Assembly (NCBI RefSeq): GCF_028463845.1
Contig: NZ_CP116805.1
Location: forward strand, 2,604,001 to 2,668,000
Length of the DNA stretch: 64,000 nucleotides
Source: Gimibacter soli
GTDB lineage: Bacteria; Pseudomonadota; Alphaproteobacteria; Sphingomonadales; Kordiimonadaceae
Direction of reading: 5' to 3'
Shown here: in pieces, positions 19,850 through 35,699 of the stretch
Position numbering within the stretch: the first letter of the stretch is position 1
Layout: every line of letters starts with the position of its first letter
The notes under the pieces: generated by a model
Told to the model about the DNA's origin: nothing
Seen by the model: only the letters and a program-made list of their open reading frames with translations
Database searches by the model: none
Position numbers and translations under genes: made by a program

Positions 19850-20929
19850 CTAAAGCGCGAGCCAACTGACCAGCAAAGATGCGCAGAAGCTTACGGAAGT
19901 CGCCACAAACACCGGGACGGCGGGGCGCCACCCCATGGAGAGAAGCAGATCAAGCCGGGTGCGCATGGCAGTCGCTGTAACGGCGAACAGCAGCAGCACT
20001 TTCGACCCCGTCAGCGCCCAGGCCGAAAGTTCGCGTGGGAAATTAACCAGACTGTTCAGCCCGACAAGCAGCAGGAAGGCAACGATGAACCACGGCAGCG
20101 ACAGGCGCTTCAGGATGCCGCCGGTGTTGTTGTCGGGCGTATCAACCGCAAGGCTGATCAGTGCCACGAACGGCGCGAGCAAGGCCACCCGTGCCATCTT
20201 GACGATGGTGGCGTGTTGGCCGGCCTCATCCGAGAACGAATAACCCCCGCCAATCGCTTGCGCGACATCATGGATAGACGCGCCGAGCAGGAACCCGGCC
20301 TGCATGTCGTTCAGGCCAAGTTCGGCGGCGAGTATCGGATAGATCGAGAATGCCAGCGCACTTGCCATCGCCACCCCGACAAGTGTCAGGGCAAACTGGG
20401 CCTGTGGCAGACGGTCCTTGCCGATGACGCCATAAAGGGCCAAGGCAGCGCTCGATCCGCAAATCGCAGTGGCTCCGCCCGCCAGAAGCCCGGCAAAGCC
20501 GGATTGACCGGCAAGCCGCGCGCTACCAACGCCCGCCAGTACCGTTACCGCCATGACGGCCAGCAGGCACACGAACGGCATGATCCCGAGTGCACCGATC
20601 TGCATGAAGGTCACCTGCAGCCCGAGCATGGCAATGCCCACACGCAGGAAAGACCGTGACGCAAAGTCCAGCCCTTCGTGCGTGCGCTGATCACTCGACA
20701 CGAAATTCATGGCGAGACCGACAAGCAGCCCCAGAAGAATGACAGGAAAACCGTAATGGTCGGACAACCAGGCCGCCGATGCAGCCCCTGCCGCGCAAAC
20801 CGCAAGCCCCGGGAAAAGGCGCTTCCAAAGCGGCCGCAGGTCTCGGTGAGGATCAATTTCCGCGGCCAATTGCTGCTCGCAGAACAGGTCGCCCTGATAG
20901 TCGAGGTCGCTTTGATTGGGGTCCTTCAT
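19850..20929 (-). CDS. YeiH/UPF0324-family membrane protein, putative sulfur-oxyanion exporter
   Basis: About 359 residues from the ATG at 20929, which has GGAGAG upstream, with around ten membrane helices and the family segments VILLGLLVGLAMNF, GGATAICGSSAAL and GASIHDVAQAIGGG. The family is commonly named a putative sulfate exporter, although direct proof is thin. It is divergent from the MFS gene. The shared promoter carries an operator-like sequence almost identical to one in front of the sulfoquinovosidase operon. The simplest role is exporting the sulfite or sulfate released from sulfoquinovose. Confidence 0.82.
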   Translation of the reverse strand: MKDPNQSDLDYQGDLFCEQQLAAEIDPHRDLRPLWKRLFPGLAVCAAGAASAAWLSDHYGFPVILLGLLVGLAMNFVSSDQRTHEGLDFASRSFLRVGIAMLGLQVTFMQIGALGIMPFVCLLAVMAVTVLAGVGSARLAGQSGFAGLLAGGATAICGSSAALALYGVIGKDRLPQAQFALTLVGVAMASALAFSIYPILAAELGLNDMQAGFLLGASIHDVAQAIGGGYSFSDEAGQHATIVKMARVALLAPFVALISLAVDTPDNNTGGILKRLSLPWFIVAFLLLVGLNSLVNFPRELSAWALTGSKVLLLFAVTATAMRTRLDLLLSMGWRPAVPVFVATSVSFCASLLVSWLAL

Positions 20930-20945
20930 GATCGACTCTCCAATT

Positions 20946-20966
20946 TTCTGTCCAACGGTATCATAT
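20946..20966. promoter_or_regulatory. Putative LacI-type operator A (yeiH/MFS)
   Basis: The 21-bp site contains CTGTCCAACGGTATCATAT and matches site B (24991-25011) at 17 of 21 positions. It is an imperfect palindrome around a central CG, with TATGATA-like and TGGACAG arms, as is usual for LacI-family operators. It lies between divergent genes. Confidence 0.6.
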
Positions 20967-21038
20967 TTTTCTTTCCATATACTTAGCAAGGTATAGGATG
21001 CAAGCGGGAAAGTGGGAAGAGACCGGGAGGAAACACCA

Positions 21039-22283
21039 ATGTTCGACAAGGATTCGCGCGGCAACAGCGGCCAGCCTCAAACGGCATTCATGCTGTTGGT
21101 AATCCTGCTTTTTATAGGCAATGCGCTTAATTATGTCGACCGGCAGGTCCTTTCCCTCCTGAAACCCACGCTCGAAACCGAATTTGGCTGGAGCGACAGG
21201 GATTATGCCCATCTTGGCTCGGCATTCCAGATTGCGGCGGCCGGCGCCCTTCTTTTTGTCGGCTGGTTTGTCGACCGGCTCGGCGTTCGCATCGCATACG
21301 GCGTGGCCATTGCTGTCTGGAGCGCGGCGGGCATGGCGCACGCCCTTGCGATGACGGTTCAACAGTTTGTTGCGGCACGCATCGTTCTGGCCGTCGGCGA
21401 AACGGTCAGTACTCCGGCCGGACTCAAGACAACAGCGCTCTACATGCATCCGAAACAGCGCAATCTGGCGATCGGCATCATCAACACCGCCCCCAATATC
21501 GGCGCGATCATTACGCCGCTGCTGATCCCGCCCTTCGCCATTGCTTTCGGCTGGAAAGCTGCATTTCTGGTGACAGGCGCCCTTGGCTTTGTCTGGCTTC
21601 TGTTCTGGCTGCCCGCGACCCGCAATCTCAAGCCCATCGGCAACATCCCCGAACGCGCCCCTGTCGACTGGAAAACATTGTTCCGTGACCGGCGCAGCTG
21701 GGTTGTTATCGGCGCCAAAAGCCTCACCGACTGTGTCTGGTGGTTCGTGCTGTTCTGGATGCCGGATTTCTTCAGCCGCGTCTTCGGACTGGGACAAGCC
21801 GAACTCGGCTGGCCGATTGCCATCATCTTCTCGCTTGCCGCGTTTGGCGCCATTTCGGCGGGTGCCATCTATCCGATCCTTGTCGCCCGCGGCCACGATA
21901 TCAATGCTGCCCGCAAGCTTTCAATGCTGTTCTTCGCAGCCATCGTGCTGGCCATGCCTTTCGCGCTCTCGACTGACAGCCCCTGGGTTGCTGCCGTCCT
22001 GATCGGCCTTGGCCTTTTTGCGCACCAGGGCTTCTCCACCAACATTTTCGGCATGACCGCCGACATCGTACCGGCCACGCGCATTGCCAGCGTGATTGCC
22101 ATGGGTGCTGTGGCAGGCAACCTTTCAGGGACCGGCATCATCGAACTCGCCGGCTGGTCGCTTGAAAATGGCCACGGCTACGCCCCCCTGTTCGTCATCT
22201 GCGGCGGCGCCTATTTCAGCGCCCTTGCCTTCATCCAGCTGATGATCCCCCGCCTGGAACTTTCGGAGGGGCAAGAGGCCTGA
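21039..22283 (+). CDS. MFS transporter (ExuT/ACS-like), candidate SQ or SQ-glycerol importer
   Basis: A 414-residue twelve-helix major facilitator. NALNYVDRQVLSLL in helix 1 and the loop containing DRLGVR are typical of the hexuronate/anion:cation symporter group. ATG 21039 follows GGGAGG. The group usually carries sugar acids and other organic anions, so a sulfonated sugar is a reasonable cargo. Its promoter shares an operator-like sequence with the GH31 operon. Specificity is inference from context. Confidence 0.85.
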   Translation: MFDKDSRGNSGQPQTAFMLLVILLFIGNALNYVDRQVLSLLKPTLETEFGWSDRDYAHLGSAFQIAAAGALLFVGWFVDRLGVRIAYGVAIAVWSAAGMAHALAMTVQQFVAARIVLAVGETVSTPAGLKTTALYMHPKQRNLAIGIINTAPNIGAIITPLLIPPFAIAFGWKAAFLVTGALGFVWLLFWLPATRNLKPIGNIPERAPVDWKTLFRDRRSWVVIGAKSLTDCVWWFVLFWMPDFFSRVFGLGQAELGWPIAIIFSLAAFGAISAGAIYPILVARGHDINAARKLSMLFFAAIVLAMPFALSTDSPWVAAVLIGLGLFAHQGFSTNIFGMTADIVPATRIASVIAMGAVAGNLSGTGIIELAGWSLENGHGYAPLFVICGGAYFSALAFIQLMIPRLELSEGQEA

Positions 22284-22310
22284 GGAGCCACAATCTTCGA
22301 ACAATGTCGC

Positions 22311-22340: not shown

Positions 22341-22480
22341 CGCCCCTTCACCATCCATTGCCCGTTCGGAACATTGCCCCTTGAGAGGCCATGAAGACGC
22401 CCCGCCCTGCCCAACCGCACCCTGCCGCACAACCACTCGCCACACATAGGCGCCACTCCTCGGTGCCCATGTAGTTCACA

Positions 22481-22516
22481 CAAAAGAAAACCCCCGCCAG
22501 TGCACAGCGGGGGTTT
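22481..22516 (-). terminator. Terminator after the TonB receptor (minus strand)
   Basis: AAACCCCCGC / GCGGGGGTTT, a 10-bp stem with a 9-nt loop. Read on the minus strand it ends in GGGGGTTTTCTTTTG. Confidence 0.8.
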
Positions 22517-22565
22517 CGTGTTTGCGGGCCGAGGGAAACGGCTGGCCCGGTCACGAGGGGAAGGG

Positions 22566-24881
22566 TTACATCTTGATGCGGAAGCTGACGCCCATGTAAC
22601 GGTCGGCATCGCGCGGGATCTGCAGGCGCTGGCCGTTGGAAACATTGAGGAGAACGTAGCTTTCATCAGTGATGTTCCGGACATGGAACGATAGGCGGTA
22701 GCTGTCATCCTTGTCCGAGAAGCCGAGCGAGGCATTCCACATGCCATAGGCATCGATTGCGCCCTGCTCGCCCAGATCCGAGAACTGCTTGCCCACATGG
22801 CGATAGTCAGTGTTCAGATACATCATATAGTCGCCGACTTCGCGTTCGTAATCGGCACCAAGGACATAGGTGAACTTCGGTGCCAGCGGCAGGCGGGTGC
22901 CATCGCGGGCGTCAGGCGCGTTGGTCAGCGGGTTCGGGTTGAACTCCTTGACCTTTGCGTCTGCATAAGCCGTGCTCAGGCGGAGCGTAAGGCCTTCGGT
23001 CGCGAGGAACACGAGATCAGTCTCAAAGCCCTTGCTCTTCACGGTGCCGGCGTTTGTCAGGTTGGTTACCACGGCGCCGTTCAGGAGCACGAAGTTGTTG
23101 GCCTGGAACCCGTCATACTCGACCGAGAAGACCGAAGCATTGAGCTGCACGCGGTCATTCATGAACTGGGACTTCATGCCCACTTCGAACGCGTCCGAGG
23201 TTTCTTCTTCAATCGGAACGGCGTGTGTCGGTGCCGTGTGGTTGAAGAAGACGTTGAAGGCCGGCCCTTTGTACCCGCGCGTATAGCTGGTGTAGAGCAT
23301 CATGTCGTCCGAAGGCGTGAACTGGAGGACGGCTTTACCCGAAAGGTTGCCGTTGCGGCTGGACCCTTCCGAGATATTCGTCCCGTTGCCGCCGGCAGAG
23401 ACAAGACCGCCCGCCGGGTTGCCCGAAACACCGGGGCCCGTTGCCGGAAGGCCTGTCGCGGCATTGATGCCGGGTGCACGTTCATGCGTGTATGAGAGAC
23501 GGTCCCACGTGTAACGAAGGCCACCGGTCAGGGCGAACATCTCGTTGAAACGATAGGTTCCCTGCCCGAATACGGCATAGTTGGTCGAGTTCACGTCGCT
23601 ATAGGACGTCGCCGTCGGGAACAGGGTGTTCACCGTGTCCGTAAGGTTGCACGGCTGGCCGCCGGTGACCGGATCAACCGGCAGGTTCGACGTTGCACAG
23701 GTGATATCCTCGCGCGTGAAGACCTGCTTGTTGTCAGACCGCCACGCAAAGGCGCCAACCTGATAGAAGAAGGGCTTCGACTGATCGGAGGCAATACGGG
23801 CTTCGAACGAAAGCTGCTCGGTTTCCACCACGCCGTTATCATGCAGCTCGGCAACGCCTACGATGGCGCGCGGCTGGAAGTCACCTTCGCGGATTTCCTC
23901 GTTCCACCAGTTGCGGTAGCCCGCAACCATGCTGAGCGTATGGCTGTCGGAAATGTCAAAGTCGGCAGATGCCGTCAGGCTCCACTGCTTGTCGTTCGTC
24001 TGGGTGACAAGATTGTGGTTGATATAGCGCTGGTCCTCGCCAAGGTCGACGCCGCCCGGCAGGCCAAGCTCGGCGTCGCGCACGGCACCAACGCTGGCGC
24101 CAGCCACGTCGGCACAGCAATCGTCATTCGCCTTGAAATAGTCAGCGATGAAGCGCATGCGGCTGCTGTCGCCCTTATAGTCGAGAACGCCGCGTGCACC
24201 CCAGTGCTCGTAGCCGTTCACGTCTTCCTCTTCGCCGCCATAGATATTCTTGATGTTGCCATCATAGCTGCCATAGAAGCCGGTTACGCGCCCGCTCCAC
24301 TGTTCCGACAGCGGCCCTGAAACCGACGTGCGCAGGCGGTATTCATTGCCTTCGTACCATTCTGCACGGGCTTCGGCTTCCAGCTCCTCGGTTCCGCCTT
24401 TCGAGACGATATTGACGAGACCTGCCGAAGCGTTCTTGCCAAAGAGCGTACCCTGCGGCCCGCGCAGCACTTCAAGGCGCTCTGCGTCCACAAGATCAAG
24501 GAAGGCCTGCCCCGAACGGCTCAGCACGACGCCGTCAACAACAGTCGAAACGCTGGGCTCGGCCGCCACCGAGAAGGTGATTGTGCCAACGCCGCGCATC
24601 ACAATGGCGCTGTTCGCACTGGTCGTACCTTTGCGGAAACTGACCGAAGGCACGATCCGGCCGATCGTCTCAAGGCTGGTCACACCGGCGTTTTCCATGC
24701 GCTGCGGCGTTACCGCACTCATCGAAATCGGCACTTCCTGAATGTTTTCGGAAACTTTTTGCGCGGTCACCACGATTTCTTCGAGCGCAAAATCATCATC
24801 TGCCACGACAGCGCCAGCCATCGCGATCAGGCTTGCGGACGCCGTCAGCACCCGCATTGCAATACGATTCGTGTTGGGCAT
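22566..24881 (-). CDS. TonB-dependent receptor of the sulfoquinovose locus
   Basis: A complete 771-residue receptor. A signal peptide covers about residues 1-27 (ending GAVVA), followed by the TonB-box-like EEIVVTAQK, a plug domain with LRGPQGTLFGKN, and a barrel ending VSFRIKM. The last residue is Met rather than the usual Phe/Tyr. The start has GGAGGGAAA in front. It is divergent from the GH31 operon across a 181-bp region with operator site B, so uptake of a sulfoquinovosyl compound through the outer membrane is likely. Known sulfo-SMO clusters use ABC importers, so this would be a different route. Confidence 0.9.
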   Translation of the reverse strand: MPNTNRIAMRVLTASASLIAMAGAVVADDDFALEEIVVTAQKVSENIQEVPISMSAVTPQRMENAGVTSLETIGRIVPSVSFRKGTTSANSAIVMRGVGTITFSVAAEPSVSTVVDGVVLSRSGQAFLDLVDAERLEVLRGPQGTLFGKNASAGLVNIVSKGGTEELEAEARAEWYEGNEYRLRTSVSGPLSEQWSGRVTGFYGSYDGNIKNIYGGEEEDVNGYEHWGARGVLDYKGDSSRMRFIADYFKANDDCCADVAGASVGAVRDAELGLPGGVDLGEDQRYINHNLVTQTNDKQWSLTASADFDISDSHTLSMVAGYRNWWNEEIREGDFQPRAIVGVAELHDNGVVETEQLSFEARIASDQSKPFFYQVGAFAWRSDNKQVFTREDITCATSNLPVDPVTGGQPCNLTDTVNTLFPTATSYSDVNSTNYAVFGQGTYRFNEMFALTGGLRYTWDRLSYTHERAPGINAATGLPATGPGVSGNPAGGLVSAGGNGTNISEGSSRNGNLSGKAVLQFTPSDDMMLYTSYTRGYKGPAFNVFFNHTAPTHAVPIEEETSDAFEVGMKSQFMNDRVQLNASVFSVEYDGFQANNFVLLNGAVVTNLTNAGTVKSKGFETDLVFLATEGLTLRLSTAYADAKVKEFNPNPLTNAPDARDGTRLPLAPKFTYVLGADYEREVGDYMMYLNTDYRHVGKQFSDLGEQGAIDAYGMWNASLGFSDKDDSYRLSFHVRNITDESYVLLNVSNGQRLQIPRDADRYMGVSFRIKM

Positions 24882-24990
24882 TTTCCCTCCCTAACTCCTT
24901 TAAATGGCGCACTTTTTCTGCATCAACCATTGATACAGAGCAAAGCAAACGCGCCAACCTCCCACCTACTCAGATGCTCTTTTCCACTTG

Positions 24991-25011
24991 TTATGTCAAG
25001 CGGTGTCATAT
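24991..25011. promoter_or_regulatory. Putative LacI-type operator B (TonB receptor/GH31)
   Basis: The site contains TATGTCAAGCGGTGTCATA, an imperfect palindrome (TATGtCA / TGtCATA), 17/21 identical to site A. It sits between a TTGTTA (24988-24993) and a TATAAG (25009-25014), so it overlaps a possible promoter for the operon. The lacI-type gene is the second gene of that operon. Confidence 0.62.
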
Positions 25012-25062
25012 AAGGTCAGAAGCAACGGGGAAGAATCACCAATTTTATCTTGGGCAGGGGTG

Positions 25063-27081
25063 ATGAGAGGGATTTCTACACGCATTTTGGCGGAAAATGA
25101 GGGTTTTGAGCTGGTCTATGAGGGCCGGATCATCCTTCGTCACACCAGTTTATGTCCTTCGTTGGTCATTTCCAGAGGCAACCCTCGGGTAACCATGTAC
25201 CGGGGCAATTTCCGCATTGAAGATTCCCCTTCGGGCACAGTGATCCCGACCGGATGGCAACAGTCCGAGAACGGCATTGAATTTGCCGCTAACGGCTCGA
25301 TCTGCGCGACGCTGACTGTAATGTCGAACGGGATCGAGGTCCGGACCACCGACCCCGCATTTGACCGGATCACCCTGCACTTCCATGCCGAAGCGGATGA
25401 GCAAGTCTGGGGTGGTGGCGAACAGATGAGCTATCTGTCGCTCAAGGGCCGCGCCTTCCCCATGTGGACGAGCGAACCGGGTGTCGGCCGCGACAAATCG
25501 ACCGAACTGACACGGATCATGGACAAGGAAGGCATGGCCGGTGGTGACTATTGGAACACCAATTATCCCCAGCCGACCTTCCTGACGTCCCGCTGGACGG
25601 CAATCCACCTTGATGCCAGCTGCTACAGCGTCCTCGATTTCACCAACCCTGAAAGCCACACGGTTTCAGTCTGGAGCAACCGGGCAAAGTTCGAGATATT
25701 CGCCGCCGCGAGTCCGACTGAACTGGTCAGCGCCCTCTCAACCCGTTTCGGCCGGCAGCCCCAACTGCCGGACTGGGCGATCGAAGGCGCTATTGTGGGC
25801 CTCAAGTCCGGTGCCAGCAGCTTCGACAGACTTGAACGCTTCCTGGATGCAGGCACCTCGGTATCCGGCATCTGGTGTGAAGACTGGGCTGGTATCCGCG
25901 AAACCAGTTTCGGACGCCGCCTGTTCTGGGACTGGAAATCCGGCGACCGCAGCGCTGCCCGCTATCCGGGCCTGAAGCAACAGATCGCGGCACTCCATGA
26001 ACGGGGAATCCGGTTCCTTGCTTATGTGAACCCGTATCTCGCCGTGGACGGTGAGCTTTTCGCTGAAGCCGAGGCAGGCGGGCACTTTGCCCGGCAGCTT
26101 GAAAGCGATGCGACGCATCTTGTCGATTTCGGCGAGTTCGACTGCGGCGTCCTTGATTTCACCCAAGCCAAAACCCGCGACTGGTTCGCCGAGCGCATCT
26201 TGGGCCGCGAAATGCTTGATATCGGGGTCGATGGCTGGATGGCTGACTTCGGCGAGTATCTGCCGACCGACCTGCGGCTTGGCGACGGATCAGACCCGAT
26301 GGAAGCGCACAACAAGTGGCCGGTTCTCTGGGCTGAGGTGAATGCGCAGGCCGTCGCATCCCGCGGCAGGACAGGCGACGCCGTTTTCTTCATGCGCGCC
26401 GGCTTCTCGGGCGTGCAAGCCCATTGCCCGCTCCTCTGGGCCGGGGACCAGTCCGTTGACTTCACCCGGCATGACGGGATCGGCACCGTGATCACCGGCG
26501 CCCTTTCCGCCGGCCTTGTCGGCAATGCCTATAGTCATTCGGACTGCGGCGGCTATACCTCGCTTCATGGCAATATCCGTAGCGAAGAACTGCTGCAGCG
26601 CTGGTGCGAGCTTGCAGCCTTCGCCCCGGTCATGCGCAGCCACGAAGGCAACCGGCCGGACGACAATCTGCAATATGACACCAATGAAGCGCTTCTCACG
26701 TGTTTTGCACGCTGGAGCCGCGTTCATGCTCATCTGGCGCCCTATGTTCGTCACCTCTGCGAGGAGGCCGAGAAAACCGGCCTGCCCGCCCAGCGCCCCC
26801 TTTTCCTGCACTATCCTGACGACGCATCCCTCTGGACAGTGCAAGACCAGTATCTTTACGGTGCTGATCTTCTGGTTGCGCCGGTGATCGAGCAGGGTTC
26901 TTCATCACGCAATGTGCTTCTTCCGGGCGATACGCCCTGGCGGCACTGCTGGACCGGCGAAGATTATGCGCCGGGCCTTCATGATATTTCTGCTCCCATT
27001 GGCCAGCCGCCGGTCTTCTATCGGCCAGACAGCGCCTTTGCGCCGCTGTTTGCCGGGCTTGCAGGGGTGATTGAACTATGA
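25063..27081 (+). CDS. smoI: GH31 sulfoquinovosidase
   Basis: About 672 residues without a signal peptide, so cytoplasmic; it should release SQ from sulfoquinovosyl glycerol. It follows E. coli YihQ along its whole length. The nucleophile Asp is D395 (GWMADFGEYLP) and the acid/base is D462 (WAGDQ), 67 residues apart as in YihQ D405/D472. The sulfonate-binding set of SQases is present as K253, E278, R291, W294 and Y498, the K-E-R-W-Y variant known from Agrobacterium rather than YihQ's Q-Q-R-W-Y. ATG 25063 is preferred although its ribosome site is modest (AGGGGTG). The stop overlaps the lacI-type gene by ATGA. Confidence 0.92.
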   Translation: MRGISTRILAENEGFELVYEGRIILRHTSLCPSLVISRGNPRVTMYRGNFRIEDSPSGTVIPTGWQQSENGIEFAANGSICATLTVMSNGIEVRTTDPAFDRITLHFHAEADEQVWGGGEQMSYLSLKGRAFPMWTSEPGVGRDKSTELTRIMDKEGMAGGDYWNTNYPQPTFLTSRWTAIHLDASCYSVLDFTNPESHTVSVWSNRAKFEIFAAASPTELVSALSTRFGRQPQLPDWAIEGAIVGLKSGASSFDRLERFLDAGTSVSGIWCEDWAGIRETSFGRRLFWDWKSGDRSAARYPGLKQQIAALHERGIRFLAYVNPYLAVDGELFAEAEAGGHFARQLESDATHLVDFGEFDCGVLDFTQAKTRDWFAERILGREMLDIGVDGWMADFGEYLPTDLRLGDGSDPMEAHNKWPVLWAEVNAQAVASRGRTGDAVFFMRAGFSGVQAHCPLLWAGDQSVDFTRHDGIGTVITGALSAGLVGNAYSHSDCGGYTSLHGNIRSEELLQRWCELAAFAPVMRSHEGNRPDDNLQYDTNEALLTCFARWSRVHAHLAPYVRHLCEEAEKTGLPAQRPLFLHYPDDASLWTVQDQYLYGADLLVAPVIEQGSSSRNVLLPGDTPWRHCWTGEDYAPGLHDISAPIGQPPVFYRPDSAFAPLFAGLAGVIEL

Positions 27082-28091
27082 GTGAACGGGCGAATATCAG
27101 GGATGTGGCTGCGAAAGCAGGGGTTGCCGTCAAAACGGTCAGCCGCGTGCTGAACGGGCATCCTTATGTGAGTGCAGAAACCAAGACGAGGGTCGAAGAC
27201 GCGATCCGTGAACTTGATTTCCGCCCCAGCATCGCCGCCCGCATCCTGACAGGTTCAAAATCGAACCAGATCGCCCTCATCTACGATAACCACAGCCCCT
27301 ACTACATGTTCCAGATCCAGACGGGCTGCTGGGAATTCTGCAAGGAAAACAACATCCGCCTGCTGGCACAGCCGGTTGATGTGGCAGACCCGCAGGTTGG
27401 CGAGCAGGTTCGCGGCCTCGTTTCCGAAACGCATGTCGACGGGATCATCCTTTCGTCGCCGGTAACCGACTGCATCCCGGTCCTGCGTACGCTCGAGGCA
27501 ATGGATATCCCCTTCGTCCGCATCTCGCCCGGCACCAATCATGCGCTGACTAGCTCGGTCTTCATGGATGACGCGCAGGCCGCAGACGACATCACCACCT
27601 TCCTTATCAACGCAGGCCATCGTCGTATCGGCTGCATCAAGGGCCACCCCAACCACATGGCCTCGGATGACCGTCTTTTCGGCTACCGCCGCGCGCTTGA
27701 CCGCGCCGGCCTGCCCTTTGAGCCGAGCCTCGTCTTCGCCGGCGAGTTCGATTTCGAAAGCGGCGTCCGTGCAGGCCAGTATTTCCTCGACATGCCGGAC
27801 CGGCCGACCGCCATTTTTGCCTCGAACGACGATATGGCAGCAGGCGTCTTGGCCGTCGCCCATGACCGGGGCATCGAACTGCCCACGCAACTTTCGGTCG
27901 CCGGTTTCGATGACACAACGCTTGCCCGTACCGTATGGCCGCCGCTGACCACCATCCATCAGCCGATGGCTGAGCTTGGCCGGACAGCGACCGAAATCCT
28001 TGTTGCGGGCGGTGATATCACCCACCGGCGCCTGCCCCACACCCTTGTCGAGCGCGCGTCTGTCGTGCCACCACCTAGGAAGACTTTATGA
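27078..28091 (+). CDS. LacI-family transcriptional regulator of the SQ operon
   Basis: A 337-residue protein with the LacI helix-turn-helix (NIRDVAAKAGVAVKTVSRVLNG segment, residues about 6-27, including hinge), followed by a periplasmic-binding-protein-like effector domain to the end. It overlaps the GH31 gene and the reductase gene by ATGA on both sides, so it is made together with the enzymes. The two 21-bp operator-like sites A and B are its natural targets. The inducer is probably SQ or a derivative, by analogy with other sulfo-sugar loci. Confidence 0.9.
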   Translation: MSERANIRDVAAKAGVAVKTVSRVLNGHPYVSAETKTRVEDAIRELDFRPSIAARILTGSKSNQIALIYDNHSPYYMFQIQTGCWEFCKENNIRLLAQPVDVADPQVGEQVRGLVSETHVDGIILSSPVTDCIPVLRTLEAMDIPFVRISPGTNHALTSSVFMDDAQAADDITTFLINAGHRRIGCIKGHPNHMASDDRLFGYRRALDRAGLPFEPSLVFAGEFDFESGVRAGQYFLDMPDRPTAIFASNDDMAAGVLAVAHDRGIELPTQLSVAGFDDTTLARTVWPPLTTIHQPMAELGRTATEILVAGGDITHRRLPHTLVERASVVPPPRKTL

Positions 28092-29002
28092 GCGAACTGC
28101 GACTACCGCCTGCCGAGCGCACCCTCGGGGCCAGTGGAATTGCCATCTCCCCCATCGCATGGGGCATGTGGCGCCTTGCTGAAAATGGCCGGACGGCCGG
28201 CGAAGCGGCAAGGCTGGTTCATGCAGCCCTTGATGCGGGCATCAATCTGCTCGATACAGCCGACATTTACGGCTTTGACGGCTCAGCCGGTTTCGGCGAT
28301 GCAGAAGCGCTGCTTGGCGACGTACTGGCGCTGGAGCCGAGCCTGCGGGCCCGCATGGTGCTCGCGACCAAAGGCGGCATCCGCCCGCCACTTCCCTACG
28401 ACCAGAGCGGCCCGTACCTGAAAGAAGCAATCGACGCATCGCTGCGCCGGATGAAGACCGATGTGATCGACCTGTGGCAGGTTCACCGCCCCGATCTTCT
28501 GGCGCATCCGCAGGAAGTTGCGCGTGCCCTTGATGATGCCATTGCCGCCGGCAAGGTGCGCACGCTTGGCGTCTCCAATTTCACCATTCATCAGCTGGCA
28601 GCACTCAACCAGTTCCTTGGCAACAAGCTGGTCACGACCCAGCCCGAGATCAGCCCCCTGCGCATCGATTGCTTCGAGAACGGCGAGCTTGATCAGGCCA
28701 TGATGCTTGATCTTGTGCCGCTTGCCTGGTCGCCGCTTGGTGGCGGCCGTTTGCTCTCGCCGGAATCGGCCCGCGACAAGGCGGTCGTGGCTGAGCTGGA
28801 CCGGATTGCCGGAGCCAAAGGTATTTCGCGTTCGGTCGCGGCCTATAGCTGGTTGATGGCTCATCCGGCAGGGATCGTGCCGATCATCGGCTCACAGCAG
28901 CCGGAACGAATTTTGGAGGGCACGGCCGCGCTTGAAGTGCGCTGGACACGTGAGGAGTGGTACGCGGTGCTTGTCGCCGCCAGAGGAGAAAGGATGCCCT
29001 GA
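28088..29002 (+). CDS. smoB: Aldo/keto reductase, probable 6-oxo-glucose reductase
   Basis: A 304-residue AKR of the YdhF-like group. The catalytic tetrad is visible as D56, Y61, K95 and H133 (LLDTADIYGF, ATKGG, WQVHRPD). In the sulfo-SMO pathway SmoB reduces 6-oxo-glucose, made by SQ monooxygenase, to glucose with NAD(P)H. Its place between the regulator (ATGA overlap) and the SsuD-like monooxygenase (2-base gap) matches this role. The family alone would allow other carbonyl substrates. Confidence 0.82.
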   Translation: MSELRLPPAERTLGASGIAISPIAWGMWRLAENGRTAGEAARLVHAALDAGINLLDTADIYGFDGSAGFGDAEALLGDVLALEPSLRARMVLATKGGIRPPLPYDQSGPYLKEAIDASLRRMKTDVIDLWQVHRPDLLAHPQEVARALDDAIAAGKVRTLGVSNFTIHQLAALNQFLGNKLVTTQPEISPLRIDCFENGELDQAMMLDLVPLAWSPLGGGRLLSPESARDKAVVAELDRIAGAKGISRSVAAYSWLMAHPAGIVPIIGSQQPERILEGTAALEVRWTREEWYAVLVAARGERMP

Positions 29003-29004
29003 TC

Positions 29005-30096
29005 ATGACTGATCAACAACAGTGTGAAATCGCCTGGTTCTCAGCGCTTTGCGATGATGACTATGAGTTTCTCGGGGTTCCCGACAAATATCTGCAATCG
29101 AGCTGGGACCATTGCCGCAACATCGTGATGCGCGCAGACGAAGGCGGCTTCGACAATATCCTGCTGCCCTCGGGCTACCAGCTTGGCCTCGACACCACGG
29201 TGTTCGCAGCCGCGGTTGCCACGCAGGTGCGCAATATCAAGCTTCTCTGGGCGACCCGGATTGGCGAGGACTGGCCGCCGCAACTGTCACGCCGCATCGC
29301 GACGCTTGACCGTATCCTTGGCCCCAACAAGGCAGGTACGGGTGGCCGGCTGAACGTCAACATCATCTCGTCCGACATGCCGGGCGAGAAGCTGGAATCC
29401 GGCCCGCGCTATGCCCGCGCCACGGAAGTGATGAAAATCGTCCGCACCCTGCTGAACGGCGAACATCTCGATTTCCAGGGCGAGTTTTACAAGCTGAAGC
29501 TTGACCCTGCCCGCATCACCACGCTTTCCGGCAAATGCCCGCCCTTCTATTTTGGCGGCCTCAGCCATGAAGCCCGTGAATGCGCCGCCGAGGGCTGCGA
29601 TGTCTATCTGATGTGGCCGGACACGATGGACAAGGTTCGCGAAACCATCGCCGACATGAAGGCCCGCGCCGCCCGCTTCGGCCGCACTCTCAAGTTTGGC
29701 TACCGCGTCCATGTGATCGTCCGCGAAACGGAAGAAGAAGCCCGCGCCTATGCCGACCGGCTTCTGTCGAAGCTGGACGTCGAGGCTGGCAAGGCGATCC
29801 GCGAAAAGTCGCTCGATGCCAAAAACTACGGCGTGCAGCGTCAGGCAGAGCTCCGCACTGCTGCGGGCGGTGACGGCTTTGTTGAAGACAATCTCTGGAC
29901 GGGCGTCGGTCAGGCGCGATCCGGCTGCGGCGCTGCCATCGTCGGCACCCCCGATCAGGTTCTGGCGAAACTCCGGGCCTATCAGGCCGAGGGCATCGAA
30001 GCCTTCATCCTGTCCGGTTACCCCCATATGCAGGAAGCCGATCTCTTCGCGCGTCACGTGCTTCCGCACATCAAGCACGGACCGCTTGAACTATGA
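29005..30096 (+). CDS. smoC: SsuD-like FMNH2-dependent monooxygenase, probable SQ monooxygenase
   Basis: A 363-residue LLM-class monooxygenase very close to alkanesulfonate monooxygenase SsuD. The SsuD active-site residues R226, H228 and R297 align with R234, H236 and R305 at exact spacing (FGYRVHVIVRET; GVGQARSGCG). The C-terminal LSGYPHMQEA is also shared. It should cleave the C-S bond of sulfoquinovose, giving 6-oxo-glucose and sulfite. A partner reduced-flavin supply is encoded three genes later. ATG 29005 has AGGA at about ten bases. SmoC is preferred over SsuD because of the GH31 and AKR neighbours. Confidence 0.85.
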   Translation: MTDQQQCEIAWFSALCDDDYEFLGVPDKYLQSSWDHCRNIVMRADEGGFDNILLPSGYQLGLDTTVFAAAVATQVRNIKLLWATRIGEDWPPQLSRRIATLDRILGPNKAGTGGRLNVNIISSDMPGEKLESGPRYARATEVMKIVRTLLNGEHLDFQGEFYKLKLDPARITTLSGKCPPFYFGGLSHEARECAAEGCDVYLMWPDTMDKVRETIADMKARAARFGRTLKFGYRVHVIVRETEEEARAYADRLLSKLDVEAGKAIREKSLDAKNYGVQRQAELRTAAGGDGFVEDNLWTGVGQARSGCGAAIVGTPDQVLAKLRAYQAEGIEAFILSGYPHMQEADLFARHVLPHIKHGPLEL

Positions 30097-31601
30097 ACCA
30101 ACACCAGCCGGCAACAGCCGATGACCCGTTTGATATCGCGGTCATCGGCGGCGGCATCAACGGTGCCGGTATCGCCCGGGACGCAGCAGGACGCGGTGCC
30201 CGTGTCCTGCTTCTCGAAGCGCGGGACCTTGCGAACGGTACATCATCGGCATCCACCAAGCTCATTCATGGCGGCTTGAGGTATCTCGAGCATTATGAAT
30301 TCGGGCTGGTGCGGGAAGCGCTTTCCGAACGCGAGCTTCTGTGGTCGATCGCCCCCCATATCATCTGGCCGATGCGGTTTGTGCTGCCCCATATCGAGGG
30401 ACAGCGGCCCCGCTGGCTGCTGCGCCTTGGCCTGTTCCTTTATGATCATCTGGGTGCCCGCAAGAAGCTGCCCGCGACCGAACAGATCAGGCTTGAAGGC
30501 CATAGGGCCGGCGCACCCTTGTCCGCTGAACTCAAGCACGCCTTCGTCTATTCAGATTGCTGGGTGGATGACGCCCGTCTTGTTGTCCTGAATGCCCGCG
30601 ATGCCGCCGACAAAGGCGCTGTCATCAATACCCGTTGCCCGGTTACCGCGATGGAGCGGAGCGACAAGGGCTGGACGATCACAACACCCAAGGGCCGCTT
30701 CCACGCCAAGGCTGTGGTCAATGCATCGGGCCCCGCTGTCCTTGATGTACTGGGACTGAGCGGCAAGAAGACCGACCGCCAGATGCGGCTTGTGCGCGGC
30801 TCCCATATCGTGGTGCCGAAAATCTTCGACCACGAGAATGCCTATTTCTTCCAGTTGCCGGACGGCCGCATCTTCTTCGCGATCCCCTACGAGCAGGACT
30901 TCACGCTGATCGGCACCACGGATCAGGACCACCATGGCAGCCTGACCGATGTTCGCGCGAGCGAGGCGGAGATCGCATATCTCTGCGAAGGGGCAAGCCG
31001 CTACTTCAAAAAGCCCATCAAGCCTTCCGATGTGGTCTGGACCTATTCGGGGGTGCGGCCGCTTATCGATGACGGCTCGCAGAAGCCGGAGGGTGCCACA
31101 CGCGGCTACAGCCTCGAACTTTCCGCAGCGGATGAAGGTGCCCCTCTCCTTTCCGTCTTCGGCGGCAAGATCACGACTTACCGCCACATGGCACAGGATG
31201 CGGTCAACCTGCTGTCAAAGCGCTTGCCGGTTCTGGGGAAAGCTGCGTGGACGCACACTTCGCCTCTACCCGGCGGCGATTTCCCCTGTGAAGGCGTCGG
31301 CGAGCAGATCGAGAGCGTGGCCAAACGCTATCCCTTCCTGCAGCCGGAATGGGGTCGTCGCCTTGTCCGCAACTATGGAACCCTCGTCCCGGCCATCCTC
31401 GGCGACGCCCGGTCACTGGCAGATTGCGGCCAGCATTTCGGGGCGGGGCTTACGGAACGCGAGGTGGCCCATCTGATCAAAAACGAATGGAGCCAGACGG
31501 CGGAAGATATCCTGTGGCGCCGCACCAAGCTCGGGCTGCGCCTCTCCGCTGATCAGGCTTCAAATCTGCAAAACTATATTGAAAAAGAGTTGGTCCAATG
31601 A
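30093..31601 (+). CDS. glpD: Glycerol-3-phosphate dehydrogenase (quinone-linked)
   Basis: A 502-residue GlpD/GlpA-type flavoenzyme: FAD motif GGGINGAGIARDAAGRG near residue 18, the SSASTKLIHGGLRYLE signature, and a C-terminal helical domain. It oxidises glycerol-3-phosphate to dihydroxyacetone phosphate at the membrane. It is ATGA-coupled to the monooxygenase before it and to the FMN reductase after it. In this operon it would process the glycerol released from sulfoquinovosyl glycerol after phosphorylation by GlpK. Confidence 0.93.
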   Translation: MNQHQPATADDPFDIAVIGGGINGAGIARDAAGRGARVLLLEARDLANGTSSASTKLIHGGLRYLEHYEFGLVREALSERELLWSIAPHIIWPMRFVLPHIEGQRPRWLLRLGLFLYDHLGARKKLPATEQIRLEGHRAGAPLSAELKHAFVYSDCWVDDARLVVLNARDAADKGAVINTRCPVTAMERSDKGWTITTPKGRFHAKAVVNASGPAVLDVLGLSGKKTDRQMRLVRGSHIVVPKIFDHENAYFFQLPDGRIFFAIPYEQDFTLIGTTDQDHHGSLTDVRASEAEIAYLCEGASRYFKKPIKPSDVVWTYSGVRPLIDDGSQKPEGATRGYSLELSAADEGAPLLSVFGGKITTYRHMAQDAVNLLSKRLPVLGKAAWTHTSPLPGGDFPCEGVGEQIESVAKRYPFLQPEWGRRLVRNYGTLVPAILGDARSLADCGQHFGAGLTEREVAHLIKNEWSQTAEDILWRRTKLGLRLSADQASNLQNYIEKELVQ

Positions 31602-32167
31602 CGCATATCGTAGCCATCGGCGGCACCGTCAATCCGCGCAGTGCCACAGAACAAGCCCTGCAGGTTGCCGTTGCTGCAGCCGCGGCAGAAGGCGCCCAGG
31701 TGCAGGTTTTCAACGGGGAATATCTGTCGGACCTGCCGCATTATCGCAGCCGTTCCTACAAGCCTACGGACGGCGCCGAAATGATTGAAGCCGTTCGCGC
31801 CGCCGATGGCATCATCATCGCGGCCCCCGGCTATCACGGCACCATCTCGGGCCTCGTCAAGAATGCACTGGACTATCTCGAGGATCTGTCGAAGGACACC
31901 CGTCCGTATCTGGATGGCCGCGCTGTCGGGCTTCTGGCAACGGCCTATGGCGATCAGGCGACCATGAGCACGATGCAAACCCTGCGCAGCATTGTTCACG
32001 CCCTGCGCGGTTGGCCGACCCCCATGGGCGCCACCATCAAGCTGTCGCCTGAATTATTCGCAATCGACGGCGCCTGCACCGATCCGCGCGCCAAGACGCA
32101 GCTTGATCTTGTCGGCCAGCAGGTCGTTCAGGGTGCCCGCAGTTTCTCGGCCGGACGGGCGGCCTGA
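31598..32167 (+). CDS. NAD(P)H-dependent FMN reductase (SsuE-like fold)
   Basis: A 189-residue flavodoxin-fold reductase with the opening IGGTVNPRSAT phosphate-binding loop and APGYHGTISGLVKNALDYLE, the flavin-contact segment of the NADPH-dependent FMN reductase family. It should supply FMNH2 to the SsuD-like monooxygenase in the same operon. The reductase of the described Agrobacterium pathway, SmoA, belongs to a different flavin reductase family as far as I know, so this would be a non-orthologous replacement. Starts overlap glpD by ATGA. Confidence 0.87.
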   Translation: MTHIVAIGGTVNPRSATEQALQVAVAAAAAEGAQVQVFNGEYLSDLPHYRSRSYKPTDGAEMIEAVRAADGIIIAAPGYHGTISGLVKNALDYLEDLSKDTRPYLDGRAVGLLATAYGDQATMSTMQTLRSIVHALRGWPTPMGATIKLSPELFAIDGACTDPRAKTQLDLVGQQVVQGARSFSAGRAA

Positions 32168-32169
32168 TC

Positions 32170-32784
32170 ATGTCTGATATCAGGAAAGCCCTTGAAGACC
32201 TCGCAAACGGCAAGATCATCGTACTGACGGGTGACAGGTTGCGGGGCGGCGATATCGATTTTGCCGTCGCTGCCAAACATGCCAACGCCGAAGCCATCAA
32301 TTTCATGGCTAAGCACGGGCGCGGCCTCGTGTGCCTGTCACTGACGCCTGCGCGGGCGGTGAAGCTTGGCATCCGCCTGATCAATTCGGGCAAAGAGCGC
32401 CAGTCGGGCCGTCCCTTCGGACAGTCAATCGAGGCAAAGACAGGCGTTTCGACCGGAATTTCGGTTGCCGACCGCGCCCACACAATCAGCGTGGCCATTC
32501 GCGACGGGGCAACGGGCGACGATATTACCGCACCCGGCCATGTCATGCCGCTGATCGCCGCCGCGGGCGGAGTGAAAGAGCGCCCGGCCGCCGCCGAGGC
32601 ATCCATCGATCTTTGCCGGATGGCCGGCGCCGGTGACACGGCGGTCATCTGCTCGATCATGCGCGAGGACGGCGAAATGGCGCGCCTGCCTGACATCGAA
32701 GCCCTGATCAGGGAATTCGATCTCGCCGTTGCTGATATCGACGACCTCCTCGCCTTGCTCGACAAGGGGGACATTCCGCAGTGA
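32170..32784 (+). CDS. RibB-like protein with altered catalytic loop
   Basis: A 204-residue protein with the overall 3,4-dihydroxy-2-butanone-4-phosphate synthase fold: HGRGLVCLSL, KTGVSTGISVADR, GHVMPL (H124) and E143 are kept. The hallmark acidic loop D-R-E-N-E-G-D, which carries metal-binding and catalytic glutamates, instead reads D-R-L-R-G-G-D (residues 22-28). Two glutamates are therefore missing and normal RibB activity is doubtful. It lies between an FMN reductase and glycerol kinase in a tightly coupled operon. It could be a flavin-pathway remnant, a regulator, or an enzyme with a new reaction on a sugar phosphate. Confidence 0.8.
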   Translation: MSDIRKALEDLANGKIIVLTGDRLRGGDIDFAVAAKHANAEAINFMAKHGRGLVCLSLTPARAVKLGIRLINSGKERQSGRPFGQSIEAKTGVSTGISVADRAHTISVAIRDGATGDDITAPGHVMPLIAAAGGVKERPAAAEASIDLCRMAGAGDTAVICSIMREDGEMARLPDIEALIREFDLAVADIDDLLALLDKGDIPQ

Positions 32785-34262
32785 GTGGCCCGTGGATTCT
32801 GGTGCTGGATGAAGGCACGACCTCAACCCGTGCCATGCTGTTTGATGCGGCCGGCCGCCCGGGCGGCGTCGCCCAGCAGCCGCTGACGCAACATTATCCA
32901 CGACCGGGCTGGGTTGAACACGACCCGCACGAAATCCTTGAAAAGACGATTGCTTGCGCCCGTGAGGTGATCGAACGCGCGGGCGGCGCTGGCCACATTG
33001 CTGCCATCGGCATCACAAACCAGCGGGAAACAACCGTTGCGTGGGACCGCACGACCGGCAAGGCAATAGGCCCTGCTCTTGTCTGGCAGGATCGCCGCAC
33101 GGGTGACTTCTGTACGTCGCTCAAGGACGCTGGCCACGAGGATGACGTACAGAAGCAAACGGGATTGCTGCTGGACCCCTATTTCAGCGCCTCCAAAATG
33201 CGGTGGCTCTTGGATAATATCCCCGAAGCGCACGGCCTAGGCGACAGGCTGGCTTTCGGCACGATTGACAGCTGGCTGATCTGGCACCTGACAGGCGGTT
33301 TGCATGTCAGTGACGCGACCAATGCCAGCCGCACATCCCTGATGCGTTTGGACGGCAGAGGCTGGGACGCTGGCCTGTGCGATCTTTTCGGCATTCCGGC
33401 AAAGGCATTGCCGGAGATTGTTTCCAGCGCAGGCCGGATCGGCGAAACCATGCCCGAATGGTTTGGCGCCCCGATCCCCATCACCGGGATTGCCGGGGAC
33501 CAGCAGGCCGCAACAATCGGACAGGGCTGTCTTGCACCCGGCGAGACCAAAGCGACCTTCGGCACCGGCGCCTTCATCCTGACGAACCTTGGGCACGCTG
33601 TACCAAAATCCGGTCACCGGCTGCTTGGCACCGTCCTTCATGAAATTGATGACAGACGGACATATGCGCTCGAAGGCTCCATCTTTGCCGCCGGGAGCGC
33701 AGTGAAGTGGCTGAGGGACAGTCTCGGCCTCCTTCAGACGGCGGCAGAAAGCGAAACACTCGCGCGGTCGGTTGACGACTCTGGCGGCGTTGTGTTCGTC
33801 CCTGCCCTCGCAGGCCTCGGCGCACCGCATTGGCGCCCTGATGCCGCTGCAGCCCTCATGGGGATGAGCTTCGCAACAACACGCGCCCACATTGCCCGGG
33901 CGGCGCTGGAATCGATGGCCCACCAGTGCAATGACCTCAAGCGCGCCTTCAAGGCGGATGGTGCCGACTGGCGCCTGCTGCGCATCGACGGTGGCATGAG
34001 CAGCAACAACTGGCTTGCGCAGGATCTCGCCGATATACTGGATGTGCCGCTGGAACGCCCGACAGATGTGGAAACCACCGCACGCGGCGCTGCCATGCTG
34101 GCGGCTGTTGGCATCGGAATGCATTCCAGCCTTGAAGACGCGAAAGCCATGCTCCCGCCCGTTGATGCCTTCACGCCGAACACATCACCGAAGGTCCGCG
34201 AAGCACGCCTGGCAAAGTGGGAGGCCGGATTGGCGGCAGTGTTGAAGGGCCAGGGAGAGTGA
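32781..34262 (+). CDS. glpK: Glycerol kinase
   Basis: A 493-residue FGGY kinase. Glycerol-binding residues are visible in NQRETTVAWDR, LVWQDRRT, DPYFSASKM and AGDQQAA; ATP-binding blocks GTGAFIL and DGGMSSNNW follow. It converts glycerol to glycerol-3-phosphate for GlpD. The start is GTG at 32781, overlapping the stop of the RibB-like gene (GTGA). Its place here strongly suggests that sulfoquinovosyl glycerol, not free SQ, is the natural substrate of the locus. Confidence 0.94.
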   Translation: MSGPWILVLDEGTTSTRAMLFDAAGRPGGVAQQPLTQHYPRPGWVEHDPHEILEKTIACAREVIERAGGAGHIAAIGITNQRETTVAWDRTTGKAIGPALVWQDRRTGDFCTSLKDAGHEDDVQKQTGLLLDPYFSASKMRWLLDNIPEAHGLGDRLAFGTIDSWLIWHLTGGLHVSDATNASRTSLMRLDGRGWDAGLCDLFGIPAKALPEIVSSAGRIGETMPEWFGAPIPITGIAGDQQAATIGQGCLAPGETKATFGTGAFILTNLGHAVPKSGHRLLGTVLHEIDDRRTYALEGSIFAAGSAVKWLRDSLGLLQTAAESETLARSVDDSGGVVFVPALAGLGAPHWRPDAAAALMGMSFATTRAHIARAALESMAHQCNDLKRAFKADGADWRLLRIDGGMSSNNWLAQDLADILDVPLERPTDVETTARGAAMLAAVGIGMHSSLEDAKAMLPPVDAFTPNTSPKVREARLAKWEAGLAAVLKGQGE

Positions 34263-34266
34263 AACT

Positions 34267-34938
34267 ATGAAATCGCTGATTGCTGGCCTTCCTGTGCTTC
34301 TCGCCTCGACCTTGGCTGTTGCCGAACCAGAAAAGTCTCCAATGATCGATTTGAATGATCAGGTATCCGGACTTGTCTGTGATGCGCGATATGCTGGCGC
34401 CGAAAACTTCACGGGCCGGCCACTGACCGGATATGAGAAATCTATGTGCCTCGGCACACCGGAACTTGCGTTGGCGCTTGCCAAGGCGCAGGAAGCTCTC
34501 GCCCCATATGGTCTGACGCTCGTCGTTTTCGATGCCTATCGGCCCCAGTCGGCAGTTGATGGTCTGATCAAATGGGCAGCCGACGAGAAAGACACCCTGC
34601 ACAAGGCTGACTATTATCCAGATGTGCAGAAAGACCGCCTCATTCCAGACGGCTATATCGCCGCCAAATCAGGCCATTCACGGGGCGGCACCGTGGACCT
34701 TTCCATCGCTGATGCTGCGACGGGCACTTTGCTGGACATGGCCACCAGTTTCGATTTCTTCGGGCCGCAGTCAGGCCTCTCGGCAACTGGCCTCACCGTG
34801 CAGCAAAAGGCCAACAGGGCTTTGCTATCAACTGTGATGCAGGCTGCCGGCTTCGTTCCCTATGATGCCGAATGGTGGCACTTCCGCCTGAAAGATGAAC
34901 CCTGGCCCGACACATATTTCGACATTCCGGTACGCTAG
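34267..34938 (+). CDS. D-Ala-D-Ala dipeptidase (VanX/DdpX family), exported
   Basis: A 223-residue M15D peptidase with a signal peptide (about residues 1-19, ending LAVA). Zinc and catalytic residues match VanX by spacing: H137, D144 and H205 as zinc ligands, E202 as general base (SGHSRGGTVD and EWWHF), plus R92. It starts four bases after glpK. VanX-type enzymes split D-Ala-D-Ala, so a wall-recycling role is expected. Its place at the end of a sulfosugar operon is unexplained; it may simply ride along or may act on another small amide. Confidence 0.88.
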   Translation: MKSLIAGLPVLLASTLAVAEPEKSPMIDLNDQVSGLVCDARYAGAENFTGRPLTGYEKSMCLGTPELALALAKAQEALAPYGLTLVVFDAYRPQSAVDGLIKWAADEKDTLHKADYYPDVQKDRLIPDGYIAAKSGHSRGGTVDLSIADAATGTLLDMATSFDFFGPQSGLSATGLTVQQKANRALLSTVMQAAGFVPYDAEWWHFRLKDEPWPDTYFDIPVR

Positions 34939-34995
34939 GCAGCTCCCCTGGAAACAGTCAGGATTGAGCTGCAGCAAGCGAAGCATCGTCTTGGA

Positions 34996-35020
34996 CCGTG
35001 TAAAATGCCCGATTACACGG
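34996..35020. terminator. Hairpin between convergent genes
   Basis: CCGTGTAA / TTACACGG, an 8-bp stem with a 9-nt loop and no T-run. It may mark the end of the SQ operon, but intrinsic termination is unproven. Confidence 0.3.
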
Positions 35021-35046
35021 CCCAACAACGGACGCCATCCCGAATT

Positions 35047-35688
35047 TTATTCGCCAGCACTGTCCTCGATCATATCAGATGGGACCTCGAACAGATCGCG
35101 GGTAAGGCTGGCGCTTTCCACCTTTTTCAAGCGTGTTGCGCCCTCCTCGCCGCGGACAATCACGGGCACGCCCGAAAGGCCCATCGATTCCATATCGTTA
35201 TAGGCGCCGCCGCCAAATGACATGGCGGCTTCCATCGCGGCAAGCTCGTCTTTCGTCAGACCGAAAGCCGCTTCATCGGCAAGACATACGTCGATTGTCA
35301 CCATGCCGGCGGCGTTCAGTTTGGCCCAACGGCAGCCGATGCCGCCCGCGGTGCCGGCTTCACCGGTCCATGCCCCCGCAAATTTCATCATCGGATTCTG
35401 CTGCGCCTTTTTCATCTGGCCAAGCATGGCGCCCGACATACGGCGATACATCCCGTCCGCCGGGAAACCGAAAACATAGGAAGGACCGGCGGGGTCATAA
35501 ATTGTGAAGCGCGCATCGTCGTCCTCGGTTTCCGGCTGGTCGATCCGCACCTTGCCGTGACCTACCGAAATTCTCATTTCGGCCTTTTCTTCCGTCTCGA
35601 ACGTGAGTACCGCATCAGCGTGCGCTGCTGATACGCCAAGCCCCAGAAGCATCAGGGCAATGCCTGATTTGATGGTTTGTTTCTGCAT
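35047..35688 (-). CDS. Exported protein of unknown function
   Basis: About 213 residues from ATG 35688, which has AGGA overlapping the previous stop. A signal peptide (residues 1 to about 22, ending SAAHA) is followed by a beta-rich region and a Met/Gly-rich segment. I do not recognise the family with confidence. It follows an OmpA-like gene by 11 bases, in what looks like a three-gene operon of exported proteins (order 36623-37561, 35700-36626, 35047-35688). Confidence 0.75.
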   Translation of the reverse strand: MQKQTIKSGIALMLLGLGVSAAHADAVLTFETEEKAEMRISVGHGKVRIDQPETEDDDARFTIYDPAGPSYVFGFPADGMYRRMSGAMLGQMKKAQQNPMMKFAGAWTGEAGTAGGIGCRWAKLNAAGMVTIDVCLADEAAFGLTKDELAAMEAAMSFGGGAYNDMESMGLSGVPVIVRGEEGATRLKKVESASLTRDLFEVPSDMIEDSAGE

Positions 35689-35699
35689 GATTTTTATCC

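Follow-up and report, generated by a model that had tools for sequence, protein, structure and literature searches.

A gene for a RibB-like protein lies beside the gene of an FMN reductase in a sulfoquinovose (SQ) operon of Gimibacter soli, and its product, judging by the residues replaced in it, very likely no longer makes DHBP. The gene is under purifying selection. Within SQ clusters it is tied to the reductase gene and is present when the cluster includes this particular reductase; the pathway itself does not require it. The adjacency to the FMN reductase in every carrier examined and the strong conservation suggest that the protein is a helper of the sulfosugar-oxidising machinery. The explanation that we put first, tentatively and at somewhat less than an even chance, is that this RibB-derived pseudoenzyme would be an accessory or regulatory subunit of the adjacent reductase, coupling reduced flavin to SQ monooxygenation. 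The window, which is the whole stretch of DNA analysed, comprises 64,000 nucleotides (contig NZ_CP116805.1, positions 2,604,001 to 2,668,000); its genome is referred to as G000.

The gene and its operon

The intact open reading frame encodes a RibB/DHBP-synthase domain (PF00926, 197 bits, 2.5e-58) that scores 170 bits against the ribB equivalog model TIGR00506, just below the cut-off of 177.45, and is up to 51% identical to the RibBAs of 58 relatives of G. soli. The AlphaFold2 model has a mean pLDDT of 92.5 and finds its best Foldseek match in the PDB in the DHBP synthase 3h07 (TM 0.91); the DHBP-synthase fold is predicted with high confidence.

The gene is part of a tight operon (Table 1) with the order SQase-like GH31 hydrolase, LacI-type regulator, aldo/keto reductase, LLM-class monooxygenase, GlpD, FMN reductase, RibB-like protein and GlpK, upstream of which are the genes of a TonB receptor, an MFS transporter and a putative exporter of the YeiH type. 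An SQ monooxygenase, a 6-dehydroglucose reductase and an SQase are co-located in the window, as assigned by homology and context. The hydrolase was matched by PRK10426, presumably the YihQ model. The monooxygenase scores 247.7 bits against TIGR03565, below the equivalog cut-off of 518.2, and its true start is probably near 29023. Outside the operon, a 223-aa protein, which looks to us like a D-Ala-D-Ala dipeptidase of the VanX/DdpX type, is encoded directly after glpK (34267-34938, plus strand), and a second flavodoxin-type FMN reductase-like gene (41314-41874, minus strand) is found 9 kb downstream, its product being 29% identical to that of the operon over 139 aa.

Table 1. Features of the RibB-like gene and of the surrounding cluster, in coordinates of the window.
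Feature	Position	Strand	Basis
YeiH-type putative sulfite/sulfate exporter	19850..21064	-	53% identity to N. humi cluster counterpart
MFS transporter	21012..22283	+	70% identity to N. humi cluster counterpart
TonB-dependent receptor of cluster	22566..24881	-	Homologue adjoins SQase in sister clusters
GH31 hydrolase, sulfoquinovosidase-like	24988..27081	+	PRK10426, 886.6 bits vs cut-off 553
LacI-type regulator	27078..28091	+	Domain search
Aldo/keto reductase, SquF/SmoB-like by context	28088..29002	+	PF00248
LLM-class flavin monooxygenase, SquD/SmoC-like SQ monooxygenase by context	28957..30096	+	PF00296
GlpD, glycerol-3-phosphate dehydrogenase	30093..31601	+	NCBIfam NF009906, 736 bits vs cut-off 352
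Cognate flavodoxin-like NAD(P)H:FMN reductase	31598..32167	+	PF03358; adjoins RibB-like gene in every carrier examined
RibB-like protein, very likely a pseudoenzyme, 204 aa	32170..32784	+	PF00926, AlphaFold2, Foldseek
Altered loop 1, GDRLRGGDID replacing DDEDRENEGD, residues 21-30	32230..32259	+	Alignment
Loop-2 Arg81-Pro82 (E. coli T93, G94), family-invariant	32410..32415	+	42/42 family rows
Ala141 replacing metal ligand His153	32590..32592	+	A 36 / T 6 of 42 distinct rows
Ser162 replacing Glu174	32653..32655	+	S 26 / A 16 of 42 distinct rows
GlpK, glycerol kinase	32781..34262	+	TIGR01311 above cut-off; 4-base overlap with RibB-like 3' end

In the sample of the window's class (385 genomes, with at most 8 candidates scored in each), G000 was the only carrier among the candidates scored; its RibB-like gene reached 349 bits and the next best candidate 227. 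The SQ monooxygenase, searched at an E-value of 1e-120, was likewise present only in G000 among this genome and 58 relatives, while the nearest monooxygenases on the tree, 92% identical, belong to the Novosphingobium genus sample described below. This suggests that the operon was probably acquired by horizontal transfer.

The altered active site

Residues are given in the numbering of E. coli RibB, which is the window residue plus 12. The register of loop 1 was taken from an ungapped alignment to 6mnz, 3h07 and 3lqu, and also to 108 other RibB sequences and that of E. coli. In this alignment D33-D34-E35-D36-R37-E38-N39-E40-G41-D42 of E. coli corresponds to G-D-R-L-R-G-G-D-I-D in the window. 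The loop retains R37 and D42, has Gly in place of E38 and a conservative Asp in place of E40. The sequence-only reading that preceded this work had opposed DRLRGGD (residues 22-28) to a canonical DRENEGD and concluded that both glutamates of the loop were gone. It was right that the loop is non-canonical and that E38 is lost; its register was off by two, and the second glutamate has merely become an aspartate. Its further view that the active site is otherwise intact proved mistaken: the motif GGHTEA reads PAAAEA, with Ala at the metal ligand H153, E174 is Ser, and Thr93-Gly94 of loop 2 is Arg-Pro.

These changes are a property of the whole family. Active-site counts were made on 42 distinct family rows, L156 being dropped as identical to L033, and the carriers G648, G666, G692 and G716 were left out of both the active-site and the locus counts. 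The His at 153 and the Glu at 174 are absent in all 42 rows, which also agree in having Gly for N39, Arg for T93 and Pro at position 94. Asp in place of E40, Gly in place of D33 and the retained D42 are each found in 41/42. Position 38 is free to vary (G 27, R 9, D 2, Q 1, S 1, H 1 and E 1, the last in L261), so that its Glu is replaced in 41/42. In the same alignment, the 120 canonical rows show no variation at E38, N39, E40, T93 and E174; at position 153 they have H (112 rows) or Q (8 rows), and three have Pro at position 94. Since the replacements recur consistently in 42 distinct members, they are not due to chance or to sequencing error. The row of L258 is out of frame at the N-terminus, with odd letters at positions 32-42; the frame break, around 7968-8702 of that locus, is either a sequencing error or the mark of a broken copy.

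The other side of the pocket is conserved. All 42 rows keep R37, C67, T107, G108, S110, D113, R114, H136, R150 and E155, and with them the phosphate-side and lid residues R37, T107, H136 and R150. With RibB/DHBP synthase, including the corresponding domain of RibBA, the protein has in common the fold and R37, T107, G108, S110, D113, R114, H136, R150 and E155; it differs in the loss of the metal ligands E38 and H153 and of the active-site E174, in Asp for E40, in T93R, in Pro at 94 and in the glycine-rich loop 1. According to passages of PMC5228156, Glu39 of the V. cholerae enzyme (numbering E. coli plus 1) touches both metals, His154 coordinates the metal at M1 and an ionic contact links Arg38 to the phosphate of Ru5P, and the experiments cited there found that Glu39Ala, Glu41Ala and His154Ala lose activity. 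The RibB-like protein lacks the equivalents of Glu39 and His154, which makes the synthesis of DHBP very unlikely. A pocket that has no metal ligands and holds R37, R150 and H136 together with the new R93 would fit an anionic ligand.

Second RibB and selection

The sequence-only reading had proposed a check for a second, intact ribB, and the genome of the window does contain one, a RibBA at G000:C1:2270617-2271192 with an intact active site. Intact RibBAs, their active sites also checked, were found in four of the five other carrier genomes searched; in the fifth, the 2.3-Mb assembly G439, the RibB-like paralogue was seen and no intact RibBA. The presence of an intact RibBA counts against the idea that the RibB-like protein still makes some DHBP, as a residual or altered synthase, and thereby adds to the riboflavin and so to the FMN available to the monooxygenase. 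Two plasmid loci speak in its favour: in L036 (6094-9053, Pseudosulfitobacter) and L034 (3637-8618, Agrobacterium larrymoorei), RibBs with intact sites lie near genes of an LLM monooxygenase and a flavin reductase, and these perhaps serve as a local supply of FMN, in contrast to the dead version. Also against this idea, E38, H153 and E174 are all replaced, and mutation of Glu39, Glu41 or His154 leads to loss of activity as cited in the above passages of PMC5228156. Nor was there any Rfam match, and hence any FMN riboswitch, at the gathering threshold in 22000-36000. We regard a residual synthase as highly improbable.

The 15 RibB-like members included in the tree form one clade (100/100) among the alphaproteobacterial RibB(A)s, on a stem branch of 2.33 changes per site. 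Pairwise dN/dS of the genes is 0.04-0.22 in 11 pairs, a twelfth pair being identical; L156 was dropped from both analyses for its identity to L033. Rapid change on the stem followed by constraint points to a new function rather than to decay. A decaying passenger gene beside the reductase would be compatible with the long stem and with the frame break of L258. Such low dN/dS values, the identity of many pocket positions in all 42 divergent members and the fact that the gene is missing in a single genome (G598) where the reductase is near the SQ monooxygenase weigh against a passenger, which we hold to be very unlikely. The earlier proposal that selection has preserved the fold for a role other than making DHBP is therefore upheld as very likely by the dN/dS values, by the additional losses in the active site and by the intact RibBA.

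Distribution of the gene and its partner

Two samples were searched. The genus sample comprised 149 genomes of Novosphingobium, the genus of G440 (Novosphingobium sp. SG751A), with the best 21 or fewer candidates per genome scored, and the second sample 397 genomes of the family of G440, with the best 8 or fewer scored; G440 is common to both. In the genus sample, 13 genomes have the RibB-like gene and 71 an SQ monooxygenase, and 58 of these 71 are without the RibB-like/reductase pair. Homologues of the FMN reductase with an E-value of 1e-35 or better occur in 31 of the 149. The cognate reductase, at 66-72% identity, is limited to 13 of them, which are the same 13 genomes that carry the RibB-like gene; the other 18 are at 52% or less. 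No genome of this sample has the RibB-like gene or the cognate reductase singly at the thresholds used. Among the Novosphingobium isolates with both genes is N. sediminicola DSM 27057 (L039). A general need for the RibB-like protein in SQ breakdown was rejected, as only 13/71 SQ-monooxygenase genomes of Novosphingobium have it.

In the family sample, the RibB-like gene is present in at least 32 genomes and the reductase (E 1e-60 or better) in at least 63, and all 32 carriers are among the 63. In every one of the 32 the two genes are adjacent and on the same strand, with 8-76 bases between the match ends. An SQ monooxygenase is found in 31 of the 32 carriers (30 of the 31 searched anew, and G440 by the search of the genus sample), the exception being the 1.9-Mb assembly G886. 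The RibB-like gene is missing in 31 of the 63 reductase genomes, of which 12 have an SQ monooxygenase. In one of these 12, G598, less than 5 kb separates the monooxygenase from the reductase; in the other 11 the monooxygenase is on another contig (8 genomes) or at least 150 kb away (3 genomes), these distances being limited by draft contigs.

The suggestion of a sulfosugar operon is borne out at the level of loci, as 40 of the 42 distinct carrier loci contain homologues of the SQase, the aldo/keto reductase or the SQ monooxygenase; the other two, L257 and L288, are short contigs with only the TonB, MFS and YeiH genes of the cluster. The expectation that such paralogues would always accompany SQase/SsuD-like genes holds to this extent, and it fails in the 58 Novosphingobium genomes that have the SQ monooxygenase without the RibB-like gene. 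Two loci, L165 and L166, show the gene order of the window without the pair. Of the two neighbours first proposed as meaningful, the reductase is indeed the constant partner, whereas GlpK lies beside the RibB-like gene in only 10/42 carrier loci and was rejected as a partner on this ground; GlpD is beside the pair in 32/42. An apparent fusion of the reductase and the RibB-like protein in L041 (an open reading frame of 410 aa) was also rejected, the upstream part being the reductase region out of frame.

Thirteen of the loci examined have the reductase without the RibB-like gene (from 12 of the 31 reductase-only genomes, plus a second copy in G886). In five of them (L264 and L266-L269) the reductase follows GlpD and there are no matches to the SQase, aldo/keto reductase or monooxygenase; in L267 and L268 YeiH adjoins the reductase. 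The reductase directly follows GlpD in these five loci and may thus have an earlier function connected with the oxidation of glycerol 3-phosphate. For the same reason, namely that five of 13 reductase-only loci are without SQ genes, we only infer that it is the flavin supplier of the SQ monooxygenase.

Inheritance as a block

On a monooxygenase tree of 70 genus-sample genomes and the window (G484, with a partial monooxygenase, was left out), the pair requires seven gains or losses, six of them forced by starred branches. Distances were compared in genomes with the monooxygenase in the locus (32), of which 29 passed the rule of 75% coverage and no stop codon for the RibB-like gene. In these 29, the distances of the RibB-like gene follow those of the reductase (r 0.92, and 0.89 as a partial correlation that controls for the monooxygenase), and given the reductase the correlation with the monooxygenase is -0.03. 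Where the locus includes GlpD (22 genomes), the correlation with GlpD is 0.94 (0.59 given the reductase), and that with the reductase given GlpD is 0.39; in 21 genomes the values given the reductase are 0.40 for the SQase and 0.29 for the aldo/keto reductase. GlpD, where present, is a closer correlate than the reductase, and all three genes may form one unit, GlpD-FMNred-RibB. Joint inheritance and correlated distances are to be expected of adjacent genes in any case, so that inheritance as a block shows the unit of inheritance and not a contact between the proteins.

The link to GlpD is also one reason to consider a neofunctionalised enzyme, which would act without a metal on a sugar phosphate or on a sulfosugar-derived aldehyde in the glycerol/DHAP or the 6-dehydroglucose branch. 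GlpD adjoins the gene in 32/42 carrier loci and is the closest correlate in the 22-genome test, R37, T107, H136, R150 and E155 are present in 42/42 rows and D42 in 41/42, and the pocket has new invariant residues. On the other hand, 10/42 carrier loci have no GlpD beside the gene, clusters without the RibB-like gene are otherwise alike (L165, L166), and the known pathway, with its SQ monooxygenase and aldo/keto reductase, has no missing step according to passages of PMC9594981. A new enzyme is an unlikely solution, if one to be taken seriously, and a role together with GlpD is a further rival. Of the two roles suggested from the sequence, the flavin-linked one is favoured, and the sugar-phosphate role retains the support of the kept phosphate-side residues and of the correlation with GlpD.

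A possible accessory subunit of the FMN reductase

The SQ monooxygenase route relies on reduced flavin, and reduced flavin that is not coupled to the reaction wastes NAD(P)H and yields peroxide. If the RibB-like protein is an accessory subunit, it would physically contact the FMN reductase, and its metal-free, less acidic pocket would bind an anionic ligand. In the version that we prefer, the ligand would be SQ itself, bound by its sulfonate where Ru5P was bound by its phosphate, or a closely related metabolite. The binding of this ligand would switch the reductase on, so that FMNH2 would not be wasted on O2 when SQ is absent. Such a metal-free SQ sensor, with the old phosphate site binding SQ and gating the reductase, is conceivable by analogy, and by itself unlikely. 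The analogy is with AbHpaC (C1), in which, according to passages of PMC10816480, 4-HPA acts through a MarR-like domain to increase flavin reduction by a factor of 30 or more; the gating of a flavin reductase by the substrate of its monooxygenase thus has a precedent. The RibB-like protein would follow the same logic, by which the substrate of a two-component monooxygenase gates the reduction of flavin. The two differ in that the sensor of AbHpaC is a fused MarR-like domain, while the RibB-like protein is separate.

In a sister version, nearly as likely as the SQ version and included in the chance given to an accessory subunit, the protein would be a carrier: the former ribulose 5-phosphate pocket would hold FMN or FMNH2 by its ribityl phosphate and pass it on from the reductase to the monooxygenase for SQ. 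Such a carrier would be in line with the tie to an FMN reductase and to genomes with an FMN-dependent monooxygenase, and with a pocket in which R37, R150 and H136 are kept, R93 is added and the acidic metal loop is neutralised. The fact that the carrier loci are SQ clusters speaks against it, as does the passage of reduced FMN by free diffusion in AbHpaC/AbHpaB (PMC10816480, passages), and taken alone we consider the carrier rather improbable.

The reading as an accessory subunit in general is weakened by G598, where the reductase lies near the monooxygenase without the RibB-like gene, by the closer correlation with GlpD and by the many SQ-monooxygenase genomes of Novosphingobium that are without the pair. 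The described chemistry needs nothing further, the known steps all being covered without this protein. After the SQase these steps are a flavin monooxygenase with reduced flavin and then a 6-dehydroglucose reductase (PMC9594981 and PMC12890257, in part). Excerpts of PMC9594981 also note that the N. aromaticivorans cluster is without an SsuE homologue and that other flavin reductases are presumed to act there, which agrees with our 58/71 SQ-monooxygenase genomes without the pair. Novosphingobium has been reported as an SQ assimilator with a predicted sulfo-SMO pathway (PMC13372026, passages).

Relation to known systems and significance

The operon has the SQase, LLM monooxygenase, aldo/keto reductase and FMN reductase of the sulfo-SMO/sulfo-ASMO systems (SquD/SmoC, SquF/SmoB, SsuE/SmoA) and differs from them in the extra RibB-like gene. 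Among the papers listed from the open-licence PMC literature, judged by titles, the starts of abstracts and passages, none is on a RibB-like gene of SQ clusters, and in PMC10755693 RibB is matched only within the word 'ribbon'. A related case is Arabidopsis RIBA3, which according to passages of PMC3509567 also has a RibB domain without the essential residues and without DHBPS activity; for the RibB-like protein the loss of activity is read from the sequence. RIBA3, however, keeps an active GTP cyclohydrolase II domain, while the RibB-like protein is a free-standing domain, encoded in a catabolic operon next to an FMN reductase.

Such genes are probably mis-annotated, since a family search would name them ribB. 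Sulfoquinovose turnover is a large flow of the sulfur cycle (PMC12890257, in part). In its monooxygenase route, a conserved pseudoenzyme with ties to the reductase would act as a component for control or hand-over that is as yet undescribed. It would also be a clear case of a vitamin-synthesis fold that was reused after its catalytic metal site had been removed in a coordinated way.
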